Source: Acidobacteriota bacterium | GTDB taxonomy: Bacteria; Acidobacteriota; Terriglobia; Terriglobales; Acidobacteriaceae | Direction: 5' to 3' | Length of the DNA: 64,000 nt | NCBI GenBank assembly: GCA_003225175.1 | Contig: QIBA01000036.1 | Coordinates: 1 to 64,000, forward strand | In this document: positions 19,338-48,217 of the stretch, one piece after another | Position numbering within the stretch: the first letter of the stretch is position 1 | Layout: each line of letters starts with the position of its first letter | Program-made: the position numbers and the translations under genes | The notes under the pieces: generated by a model | The model's database searches: none | Told to the model about the DNA's origin: nothing | The model's input: the letters and a program-made list of their open reading frames with translations, nothing else

Positions 19338-21761
19338 ATGGCCACTCAATCGCTCCAAACTCCTCCGGTTCCCTGTCGTGCCACCCCTGAGCTGCTGAAG
19401 ACGCACGGAATCACCCCTGAAGAGTACGAACGCATCGTGCAGGCGCTAGGCCGTGAGCCCTCGCTCACGGAGCTTGGCATTTACAGTGTGATGTGGAGCG
19501 AGCACTGCTCGTACAAGTCGTCGAAAGTTCATTTGAAGCGCCTGCCCACCCGAAGCGAGCGCGTAGTGCAGGGACCGGGAGAGAACGCCGGCATCATCGA
19601 CATCGGCGACGGTTGGGCATGCGCATTCAAGATCGAATCGCACAACCATCCTTCGTATATCGAATCCTTCCAGGGTGCGGCCACCGGCGTTGGTGGAATT
19701 CTGCGCGATATCTTCACCATGGGTGCGCGTCCGCTCGCTGTGATGGATTCACTGCGATTTGGGCGAATTGTGGATCGCAGGAAACCGCAGGGAATAGGGG
19801 ACCAGGGACAGGCGACAGGAAGAGGCGAAAGTCAGCTGCCAGCCTCATCGTACTCTCCAGCGCGGAAGCTTAGGGGCTCAGAAGCGAAGAAGCTGATCCA
19901 CAAAAATCATTCCATAGTGGAAGGCGTCGTCAGTGGTATTGCCTCCTACGGCAATTGCTTTGGTGTGCCGAATCTTGGTGGCGAGACGAAGTTCGAGGAG
20001 TGCTATTTCGGGAATCCGCTGGTGAATGCATTTGCCCTGGGTCTCGTGCGCAAGGACGAGATCTTTTATGCCAAGGCGTCGGGAGAAGGAAATCCGGTCA
20101 TTTACGTTGGCGCCAAGACCGGACGGGACGGCATTCATGGCGCCACCATGGCCAGCGAGGAGTTTAAAGAAGGATCCGAACAGAAACGCCCGAACGTTCA
20201 GGTCGGAGATCCTTTCCTGGAGAAGCTGCTGCTCGAAGCTTGCCTTGAAGCCATGCAAACCGGCGCGGTAGTCGGCATTCAGGATATGGGCGCTGCCGGT
20301 CTTACGTGCTCCACCTGCGAAATGGGCGCGCGTGGCGGCGTAGGCATCGAGATTGAACTTGATTACGTGCCGCAGCGCGAGACCGGAATGACCGCCTACG
20401 AGATCATGCTCAGCGAGTCGCAGGAACGCATGCTGCTGGTCGCCGAGCGCGGACGCGAACATGAAGTCTTCCGCGTATTCGAGAAATGGGGACTCGACGC
20501 AGTCACCATCGGCCATGTGATCAACGAGCCGCGCATGCGTGTGCTCGAGCATGGAAACATCGTCGCCGATATTCCGAACACCTCCCTCACCGACGACGCT
20601 CCTGTGTACCGCCGTCCGATGCAGCCGTGGACGGCTCCAGTGCCGAAAGAGAAACCGCCGACTGTTACGCTCGGCTCCACTGCTGACTTGACCGGAGTTC
20701 TAAAGCGACTCCTCTCCTCGCAGAACATCTGCTCCAAGCGCTGGATTCACGAGCAGTACGACTCCATGGTGCAAACCAACACTGTGCAAGGTCCCGGCGG
20801 CGATGCCGGCGTCATGCGCATCAAGGAGACGCAGCGCGGACTGGCCATGTCGCTTGACGGCAATGGACGTTGGTGCTACCTGAATCCCAAATTGGGAGCT
20901 ATGCATGCCGTGGCTGAAGCAGCGCGCAAGGTAGCCTGTGCCGGCGGTCTGCCCGTTGCAGCCACAAATTGCCTGAACTTCGGGAACCCGGAGAAGCCGC
21001 ACATCATGTGGCAATTTTCCGAGGTGATCGACGGCCTGGCCGAAGCGTGTACTGCGCTCGGCACTCCGATTACAGGCGGCAATGTAAGTCTCTATAACGA
21101 GACTCTCGGCGAAGGAATCTATCCCACTCCCGTACTTGGCGTTGTCGGGATTGTGGAGAACATTGAGCGCACCGCCACTCCTCACTTCCGGTCCCCAGGA
21201 CGCGAGGTGATCCTGCTCTCCGGCGCCACAGCTCCTTATGATGATCGCCAGCTCGGCTCATCGGAGTACGCGAAGGAAATCGCCGGGGCTCTTTGGGGAG
21301 AGCCGCCAGCACTGGACCTCGCAGCCGAGTCCGCGCTCCAGAAATGCGTGTTGGAATTGGTGGAAAAAGGCCTGATCGAGTCCGCACACGACTGCTCAGA
21401 CGGCGGGCTGGCAGTCGCGGCTGCAGAGTCGACGTTCCGCCACGAAATCGGGGCAGAGTTGCATTTGCCCCAAGGCTCGGAGCCTTTGGAGATCGCTCTC
21501 TTTGGCGAGCAGGCAAGCCGAGTGCTCGTTTCCTGCGTCCCAGGGGACCGGCAACCCATCCAAGAAACAGCGGCAAACCACAAAATTCGAGCAGAGTTCC
21601 TGGGCAGAACCGGTGGCGACAAGCTCGTCATCCGGCGTGGCCCTGCCGACGCGGTTTCCGTTTATATCGGCGATATAAAAAATGTATGGGCTCAGGCTCT
21701 GGAATGCGCCTTACACTCGGACGTGCCGGAGCGCATCGTGCCCGACACTCTCGATAAGTAG
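19338..21761 (+). CDS. purL: Phosphoribosylformylglycinamidine synthase PurL, with repeat-derived insert
   Basis: At 807 residues this is the small-type PurL, which makes FGAM from FGAR, ATP and glutamine-derived ammonia together with PurQ and PurS. Motifs include [36 protein letters not shown] and [11 protein letters not shown]. Between SLRFG and [14 protein letters not shown] there are about 52 residues where PurL usually has about a dozen. The excess (about 147-185) is Gly/Gln/Ser-rich and is encoded partly by heptad repeats (19788-19822). The reading frame stays open and downstream motifs are intact, so the enzyme is probably active. No purQ or purS lies in the window. purF follows 43 nt later. 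Confidence 0.95.
19788..19822. repeat. Five heptads inside the purL coding sequence
   Basis: CAGGGAA, TAGGGGA, CCAGGGA, CAGGCGA and CAGGAAG run end to end in the codons of the PurL insert. About 40 nt further on, a GAAGCTTAGG...GCTCAGAAGC stretch (19864-19885) resembles the GAGCTTAG repeat at 24728-24753. Both types otherwise occur between genes. Confidence 0.6.
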
Positions 21762-24584: not shown

Positions 24585-24727
24585 AACTACTCCGTGGGAT
24601 GGACTGCAAATCAGGCGCTCCTTAGGAGAGATGCGGCAGGAGAGCTGCAGGTTGGAAGCAGAGCTACAGCTGCTCAGATCCTCAGCTCTTAATTCAAATC
24701 CCATCTACGGCTAGTAGCTCTGCAACT

Positions 24728-24753
24728 CAGGAGCTTAGGAGCTTAGAAGCTTC
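24728..24753. repeat. GAGCTTAG tandem repeat
   Basis: CAGGAGCTTAG, GAGCTTAG and AAGCTTC follow one another at about 8-nt spacing, just past the stop codon of the next minus-strand gene. A related stretch lies inside purL (19864-19885). Confidence 0.5.
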
Positions 24754-33077: not shown

Positions 33078-33517
33078 CTCTGCTTGAGGTGCGTATTGCT
33101 TGGCTGATCGTTTGCTTGGCTGATGCAGACCGACCGGCAGATTTGGCTACGTCGCTCGTGCAGCAGCTCTGCCGGCAACTTCCTTGGATGCAGGCAGAGT
33201 CTCTAAGAGTTAGCAGCTAAGGTGAAAAAGCAGCAGAAAGGCAGCGGGAAAGGCAGCGATTAGCAATTAGCAATTAGCCAACCCAAATCTGCTTTAAGCT
33301 CCCCATCAGTCTGCCACGAACGGCAGATACACACTAGCAGTGAGGGACGGCGCAGGCTCCCCCGCTCTTCGCTAATTGCTAATCGCTGCCTTTTCGCTGC
33401 CGTTGCTAATCGCTAATTGCTAATTGCTAATCGCTGCCCTCCCACCAGAGCTGCCGGAAAACCCGAGCTGCCGAAATGGAATCAAAACTTACCCTGTAAG
33501 CACTCTTCTGGAGGCGT
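33078..33517. other. Divergent intergenic region with heptad arrays
   Basis: This 440-nt region separates the two divergent envelope gene groups and must hold both promoters. It contains heptads AGCAATT/AGC at 33259-33280 and inverted GCTAATT/GCTAATC arrays at 33367-33394 and 33403-33437, which can pair into a long hairpin. Promoter elements could not be assigned. Confidence 0.6.
33241..33437. repeat. Large inverted heptad element between divergent operons
   Basis: Left arm: GGCAGCGATTAGCAATT and following units up to 33280. Right arms: TAATTGCTAATCGCTGCC (about 33372-33390) and again 33410-33437. The right arm is present twice, suggesting growth by duplication. The loop is about 85 nt. Confidence 0.7.
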
Positions 33518-48073: not shown

Positions 48074-48217
48074 GAATCGGGTGAAGTAAAAAGGCTTTCG
48101 GCACTCGGCTGTCGGCTTTCGGCCTCTGGGTTGCTATGTAACTCACAGGACAGCTTCCTGGCAGAGAGCCGAACGCCGATAGCCTTTTGGGTTTCACTTC
48201 ACCCGATCACCCGATTC
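48074..48217. repeat. Composite TCGGC/ATCGGGTG hairpin after coaX
   Basis: Left arm 48074-48124 (GAATCGGGTGAAG, then TCGGCAC, TCGGCTG, TCGGCTT) and right arm 48160-48217 (inverse units, then CACTTCACCCGATCACC) can pair over most of their length. It starts 2 nt after the coaX stop and has the same composition as the birA element. Confidence 0.65.

Follow-up and report, generated by a model that had tools for sequence, protein, structure and literature searches.

The window (the whole stretch of DNA analysed, 64 kb of the 5.73 Mb draft genome G000; in our codes G### stands for genomes, G000 being the window's own, L### for fetched loci and C### for contigs) carries at 19338-21761 a gene whose product is PurL by NCBIfam (PRK01213, E 9e-303; TIGR01736, E 3e-269) and whose closest PurL relatives among named organisms are Acidobacteria, with at most 68% identity (best segment). 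This purL is ordinary apart from one place, a loop which begins after the residues SLRFG: the PRK01213/TIGR01736 profile match is interrupted around the insert and alignments with solved PurLs break between residue 146 and residues 191-193. The features of the window which concern us are the following:

19338-21761, + strand: purL, phosphoribosylformylglycinamidine synthase subunit PurL, 807 aa, frame intact (open reading frame, profile matches)
19764-19898, + strand: expanded loop of 45 residues (135 nt) between strand 131-141 and helix 181-208 (PurL loop comparison, AlphaFold)
19788-19822, + strand: five decayed G-rich heptads, consensus CAGGGRA, about residues 151-162 (score 24/28, shuffles)
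19791-19853, + strand: codons predicted to be disordered, residues 152-172 (AlphaFold pLDDT below 50)
19864-19895, + strand: four decayed octads, consensus AGNAGCTT, residues 176-186, running into helix 181-208 (score 26/32, shuffles)
24713-24752, + strand: intergenic octad array of the same family as the purL octads (octad scan)

A first-pass annotation of this DNA had proposed an in-frame repeat insertion inside PurL, and we could confirm it, as the frame 19338-21761 is intact with both heptads and octads lying within the loop. The heptads had been described as five of perfect period; the period is indeed exact and the units (CAGGGAA, TAGGGGA, CCAGGGA, CAGGCGA and CAGGAAG) are degenerate and not identical. 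When the loop was shuffled 2000 times with its dinucleotides preserved, their score was matched once. What had been called a GAAGCTTAGG-type stretch corresponds to the four octads, whose score was reached by none of 2000 such shuffles.

We compared the length of the loop with that of two sets of PurLs. Outside the window's family, it is exactly 4 residues in 54 of 65 PurLs taken from other phyla and from more distant acidobacteria (L018-L082). Within the family (at least 79 genera, 150 genomes), loops were extracted at 132 loci, from the 141 of the 150 genomes with a PurL match plus two extra members of the window's genus; the PurL loci left out are fragments or weak matches, and a zero-length loop (L177) was removed as an artefact, which leaves 131 family loops. 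These range from 11 to 50 residues with a mode at 13 (28 loops). Hence the earlier estimate of about 40 residues in excess of the usual length holds against the outside set, while against the family mode the excess of the 45-residue loop is about 32.

The AlphaFold model of the window PurL (47 sequences) has a mean pLDDT of 89.7, and its top structural match is the Thermus PurL 3viu (TM-score 0.96 by target length). As residues 152-172 fall below a pLDDT of 50 between strand 131-141 and helix 181-208, the loop is most likely an exposed, disordered linker.

Heptads and octads in the window's genome and genus

With thresholds of 23/28 for heptads and 25/32 for octads, the PurL heptad array is the sole one of its kind within the 64 kb, and the only other octad array is the intergenic one at 24713-24752, of which positions 24726-24751 are matched at 92% by the octad part of the purL loop of a sister species (G108). 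The octad has further copies on contigs C54 (78792-78828) and C66 (73731-73754) of G000, neither of them within a called gene but between such genes ("intergenic", here and below, rests on our own simple gene caller). That both repeats otherwise occur between genes, as had been noticed at first, is mostly so. In the stretches of G000 which we read (0.28 Mb of its 5.73 Mb, most of them picked for holding heptads), there are 22 heptad arrays, of which 18 are intergenic and 4, the PurL one included, fall inside called genes, and the five octad arrays scoring at least 27/32 are all intergenic (the PurL octads score 26). For G054, of the same genus, 20 of 24 heptad arrays are intergenic in the stretches read, all of which had been picked for heptads. 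When they do lie in called genes, the heptads of the genus are mostly near gene ends, with one further interior case (L317). Heptad arrays also make up C-terminal or nearly C-terminal tails of called genes (e.g. TIAEGTGNRGQGTGKP); such tails are seen at L312 3314-3355, L330 3286-3327, L331 3259-3293 and L336 3273-3321.

Searched with at most two mismatches, the heptad pattern gave 29 matches in G000 and 42 in G054; of the 80 genomes searched, 61 had no match. The reversed pattern gave 6 matches in G000 and 17 in G054, an imperfect control, since the unit and its reverse are alike. A confinement of the heptad to the window's genus is ruled out by 39 matches in G031 and 21 in G052, both beyond the genus. 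In the window, period 7 recurs with unrelated units, AGCAATT at 33255-33278, GCTAATC at 33405-33435 and GGCTTTC at 48093-48123, all three arrays being between called genes. Heptad arrays are at times paired in opposite orientation, about 40-500 bp apart (G000:C46, C56, C59; G054:C58, C76), and these pairs have the CAGGTTACAGGG variant in common, as if they were pieces of a larger element.

The expanded loop is present with an open frame and 36-50 residues in all six genomes that were found for the genus. In the sister species G108 (L086, L347) the repeats are near-perfect, with four heptads at 28/28 and octads at 31/32. The heptads are decayed in G000, G135, G054 and G150, where their score was reached by 1, 17, 55 and 0 of 2000 shuffles respectively; the loop of G151 has no heptad signal (1721 of 2000) and some octad signal (3 of 2000). 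G135 and G054 have their decayed insert in common by descent. For the pairs made of G000, G135 and G054, dN is 0.28-0.42 in the heptad-derived part (31 codons), against 0.007-0.011 in the 125 codons upstream and 0.026-0.036 in the 400 codons downstream, and it is 0.033-0.067 in the octad part (14 codons), which amounts nearly to flank-level conservation. The heptad part therefore behaves like a linker under weak constraint. Some constraint is left, as its dN/dS does not reach 1 (about 0.3 in two pairs, with dS near saturation). The octads, for their part, may have become integrated in the PurL fold. In the explanation that we favor below, the genus would have had an earlier heptad-plus-octad state, still crisp in G108 and decayed in the window's species.

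Repeats in the PurL loop across the family

The reading frame is kept in each of the 131 family loops, all of them being multiples of three without stops. Aligning PurL from close relatives, a check suggested at first, showed that family members outside the genus have the loop occupied by other sequence, and that for a number of relatives the loop DNA has matches among the dispersed intergenic repeats of their own genome or of a related one. An insert with conserved protein sequence in many relatives lacking the DNA repeats was not found among the family members compared. We could name a repeat in 37 of the 131 loops, assigned by hand to 15 classes; the other 94 are without one. The named repeats, always in frame, are palindromic REP elements of several families in both orientations and heptads of other units (L109, L131, L224). 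One hairpin element appears in one orientation in L093, L100, L104 and L128 and reversed in L097, L098, L103 and L186; further hairpin elements appear in L094/L099, L095/L107/L111, L102/L105, L129/L222, L135, L157 and L202, and the loop of L136 holds a GTCATCCCGACCGGAGCGAAG-type element. The purL of G095 (L137) has a 46-residue loop with no assignable repeat.

We then compared the 131 loops, each with ten controls of the same length from the same gene (1310 controls), with 1.52 Mb of family DNA in which purL was masked. At E<=0.01 the loops gave 44 matches, 24 of which are intergenic, while the 1310 controls gave 67 matches, none of them intergenic; loops with any match number 22 of 131 and controls 62 of 1310. 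At E<=0.1 there are 39 intergenic matches for the loops against 21 for the controls. The remaining 20 of the 44 loop matches at E<=0.01 lie in called genes, some of which are other genes with the same repeat, others being due to chance. Perfect stems of at least 7, 8 and 9 bp are found in 26, 16 and 9 of the 59 loops longer than 48 nt, against 25, 2 and 0 of their 590 controls; for the short loops (<=48 nt) there is little excess, with stems of at least 7 bp in 3 of 72 against 8 of 720. Among the 59 longer loops, 7 exceed the 99th percentile of the controls for period 7 and 6 for period 8 (5 of these 6 from one genus); for periods 5, 6, 9, 10, 11 and 12 the numbers are 1, 3, 0, 2, 1 and 1.

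On a tree of the 131 PurL tips, built by a quick method with the loop excluded, the distribution of long and short loops requires a minimum of 28 changes and that of the 15 repeat classes 29, by a parsimony which can't separate gain from loss. Loops differ even within a genus: 13 residues in L147 and 25, with a palindrome, in L091; 13, 25 and 38 residues in L160, L102 and L094; 15 residues in L198 and 26 in L135.

Among the loop repeats of the other genera, our whole-genome copy counts cover the elements of G047, of G006/G143, of G084 and of L136. The genome of G047, a single 4.1 Mb contig with the full element in its purL loop, has this palindrome in 19 further places. The loop palindrome of G006 has 8 matches in G006, itself included, and 56 in the genus-mate G143, some of which are overlapping strand duplicates. 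REP-A (at most one mismatch) occurs in 59 places of G084, purL included, against 0 for the reversed control, and is present in 67 of the 150 family genomes (reversed control 0-2 per genome). The L136 element has 69 matches in G066, a genome of the same genus as its host G141 (100 genomes were searched, G141 not among them). Among the REP copies for which DNA was fetched, 66 of 78 lie between called genes (17/19 for G047, 25/29 for G143 and G006, 24/30 for G084) and 12 in called genes, one of which is the purL of G084; REP calls at gene ends (L247, L255, L285, L293) were not counted as insertions. Within each genome the copies have a 5' tag in common, which the purL copies include: mostly CGTAG or CGTGG before the stem in G143, mostly GTGTGG with a few GTAGG in G084, and GGGTGCCC in G047. 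The loop palindromes match the tag and both arms of elements having tens of copies in the same or in a sister genome.

At one locus of G084 (L289, contig C128) REP-A accompanies a putative transposase gene:

L289 1058-1588, - strand: gene matching the REP-associated tyrosine transposase family (NF047646, E 4e-21, 75.5 bits, cut-off 80)
L289 1028-1045, 1394-1411, 1698-1715 (inverted): exact REP-A copies, beside and inside the transposase gene

The middle copy is read in frame within the gene, which matches Pfam Y1_Tnp weakly (E 0.014, 16 bits, cut-off 23). On the evidence of this one locus, where the score stays just under the family cut-off, the transposase is a possible source of movement for the purL REP. 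Y1_Tnp (PF01797) is found in 133 of the 150 family genomes, with 10 genes in G000; the tie between transposase and element concerns REP-A at the one G084 locus, the Y1 genes elsewhere not being tied to other elements.

In-frame inserts were also seen in other conserved proteins, which were named by family search. Ffh (L266 609-2012) has one which is an exact palindrome, and TrmFO (L159 15582-16919; L172) and PrmC (L159 1755-2639; L157 13653-14462) have in-frame REP or similar inserts. An exact REP-A lies in DusB (L284 1105-2349), beyond the part that fits the family profile well, and another in an ABC transporter ATP-binding region (L279 682-2004) for which no family cut-off is reached in the matches listed. 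SelB (L094 3-1307, L099 4444-5352, L223 1483-2964; identified by family search for L094 and by similarity for the other two) has tandem peptide repeats in two places, e.g. STLRGSTLQGSTLRGETL and GQPSLGQASLGQANLG, which are known as peptide repeats only and not as dispersed DNA.

Insertions of at least 8 residues in 22 ortholog groups were searched against intergenic DNA, and 15 of 84 matched against 43 of 420 controls (E<=0.02), a test which was uninformative, probably through miscalled coding pieces in the intergenic set. In the same scan PurL had 46 insertions in 133 members, PurF 2 in 118, SelB 6 in 42 and TrmFO 4 in 22. The figure of 46 is not usable as a count of the loop as a hotspot, because only 28 of the insertions fall in the loop (26 by pattern and 2 on inspection), the 18 others being elsewhere in PurL. 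Eight of these 18 lie at a second site, at about residues 599-672 (L142 and L216-L221, which are related species), with inserts of up to 44 residues; one species (L222) has a separate QSSFAQSSFAQS tandem insert at PurL residues 376-420.

Origin of the loop sequences

We consider it highly probable that the PurL loop is a tolerant place which dispersed repeats have invaded again and again. Dispersed intergenic repeats do lie in frame in the loop in several genera, and related species are without them; the frame is preserved, several classes are identical with dispersed repeats, short and filled loops stand side by side in the same genus, the protein changes faster there, and the modelled loop is disordered. 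The loop between the SLRFG strand and the next helix would be a surface linker accepting many stop-free in-frame insertions, into which short repeats dispersed between genes would have been copied or expanded, recurrently, across the acidobacterial family: in many genera these would be REPs, hairpins of 20-40 bp preceded by a 5' tag, and in the genus of the window they would be the tandem heptads and octads. Selection would purge the copies which break the frame, while those keeping it would be translated as disordered linker and would then decay by mutation under weaker constraint, the enzyme around the loop staying under strong purifying selection. PurL would presumably work normally with its loop filled. 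The REPs would most likely be moved by a Y1 transposase of the REP-associated kind, or else by gene conversion; the heptads and octads would have come by slippage or template switching, local slippage from a small seed being as likely as transposition. Against this reading we count that only 22 of the 131 loops matched at E<=0.01 and that 94 are without a nameable repeat, that heptads and octads could arise in place by slippage, and that the octad part is conserved like the flanks.

A bolder version, which seems to us rather unlikely, takes the loop for a docking site and not just a tolerant one. Incoming repeats would replace resident ones by recombination or by transposase-guided insertion, so that purL would keep exchanging REP families and orientations and would be a standing source of new protein, with TrmFO, PrmC, SelB and Ffh as secondary sites.

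It is improbable, in our judgement, that no repeat moved in at all and that the loop is a low-complexity linker grown by local slippage, whose likeness to dispersed repeats would reflect a convergence of G+C-rich sequences. Tandem heptads and octads can be made in place, and many long loops (for example L137 and L142) have no recognisable repeat. However, convergence would hardly produce 24 intergenic matches for the loops at E<=0.01 and none for 1310 length- and gene-matched controls, nor palindromes sharing the tag and both arms with elements of tens of copies; besides, the octad and heptad units of purL recur at scattered intergenic places of G000 itself.

We find it very improbable that a DNA or RNA structure, hairpin or G-quadruplex, is itself what is selected in the purL message, for instance for ribosome pausing or expression control. 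Unrelated structure-forming repeats do fill the same place, and the loop of G108, which has four G-tracts, is predicted to be stabler with a quadruplex (-31.3 versus -25.0 kcal/mol). Yet 72 of the 131 loops are short (<=48 nt) and have a small hairpin excess, and the canonical quadruplex motif is kept in G108 only, of five loops of the genus tested. A quadruplex role for the window's own copy is rejected; this copy has no canonical four-tract motif.

Finally, although many of the genomes are draft assemblies, we give almost no credit to the idea that the insert is an artefact, whether through misassembly, as part of a pseudogene, or as a stretch cut out of the message or of the protein, since the expanded loop has an open frame in the six genus members found, the single contig of G047 carries a full element in its loop, the flanks of the loop are under strong purifying selection, and no sign of an intein or intron is seen by eye in the 45 residues.

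Comparison with known repeat systems

If a tolerant loop has been invaded recurrently, as we favor, it has partial counterparts elsewhere. The first-pass annotation had likened the insert to the Rickettsia palindromic elements (RPEs), and the likeness stands for the mechanism but not for membership, because the heptads and octads of the window are tandem and non-palindromic, the longest perfect stem of the loop being 4 bp. RPEs are dispersed, lying between genes and in frame in unrelated housekeeping proteins to which they add tens of residues; they are about 150 bp long and each encodes a conserved peptide (PMC10969869, in the part used here). Like them, the insert of the window is in frame in a gene, purL, with the same repeats also between genes. 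Unlike them, it is made of two short tandem arrays with no palindrome of about 150 bp; the loop peptides vary between genera and, for the heptad part, within the genus, so that there is no conserved peptide; and the inserts of the sister genera are REPs of 20-40 bp, several families of which converge on one loop.

The palindromic elements of the sister genera are closest to REPs, which are hairpins of 20-40 bp with a 5' tag (GTAG/CGTC), mostly intergenic and sometimes in frame in conserved genes (PMC3733652). The elements of G047, G006/G143 and G084 are likewise imperfect palindromes of 20-40 bp with many copies per genome. According to the same source, two Xanthomonas species have REPs in recB at nearly one position, and RPE-4 and RPE-6 are themselves REPs. 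What differs here is that a single site of a single enzyme has received elements of several families, in either orientation, in many genera. In the part of that paper available to us, Koribacter has a single mention, for transposase genes with terminal inverted repeats, and purL is not named in the section on intragenic REPs. We found no paper on heptanucleotide tandem repeats in Acidobacteria, and no report of this purL site in the literature on repeat or palindromic insertions in purL, on REPs in Acidobacteria and on in-frame REPs. As far as the literature searched goes, what is new is that a single loop has been filled recurrently, in many genera and by many types of element.

Where selfish-looking repeats have entered essential proteins in frame, the known cases are mainly those of Rickettsia and a scatter of intragenic REPs. 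The purL loop offers a natural series of replicates over many related species, in which it is short or filled, the elements differ and lie in either orientation, and the copies are fresh or decayed. Therefore the conversion of non-coding repeats to protein, their rate of decay and the site preference of the REP transposase become measurable. Short repeats which are normally between genes ("junk") can become protein sequence, and some caution is in order with acidobacterial proteins, where a stretch specific to one lineage may be a translated repeat.

The heptads of the genus have another counterpart in the quadruplex heptads GGGAATC and GGGGA(C/T)T of Xanthomonas and Nostoc, which are G-rich, mostly intergenic, and antisense near gene starts (PMC4692102). 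Heptads which are at least partly intragenic make up 11% in one xanthomonad and 7% in another; their share is larger in Nostoc, with 68% of the heptads intergenic (PMC4692102). As far as we could consult it, this paper makes no mention of Acidobacteria and describes neither an interior in-frame array in a conserved enzyme nor a companion octad. The genus heptads are G-rich too, with 38 of 47 arrays intergenic; they differ by their unit, CAGGGRA, and belong to another phylum, and the motif of four G-tracts, absent from the window copy, is present in the loop of the sister species G108. Where the nearest gene end is a start, 17 of 20 intergenic arrays of the genus are antisense and 3 sense, as in Xanthomonas and Nostoc, a placement which speaks for a selected structure. 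Where it is the end of a gene, 9 are antisense and 9 sense, unlike the sense placement found in Xanthomonas and Nostoc.
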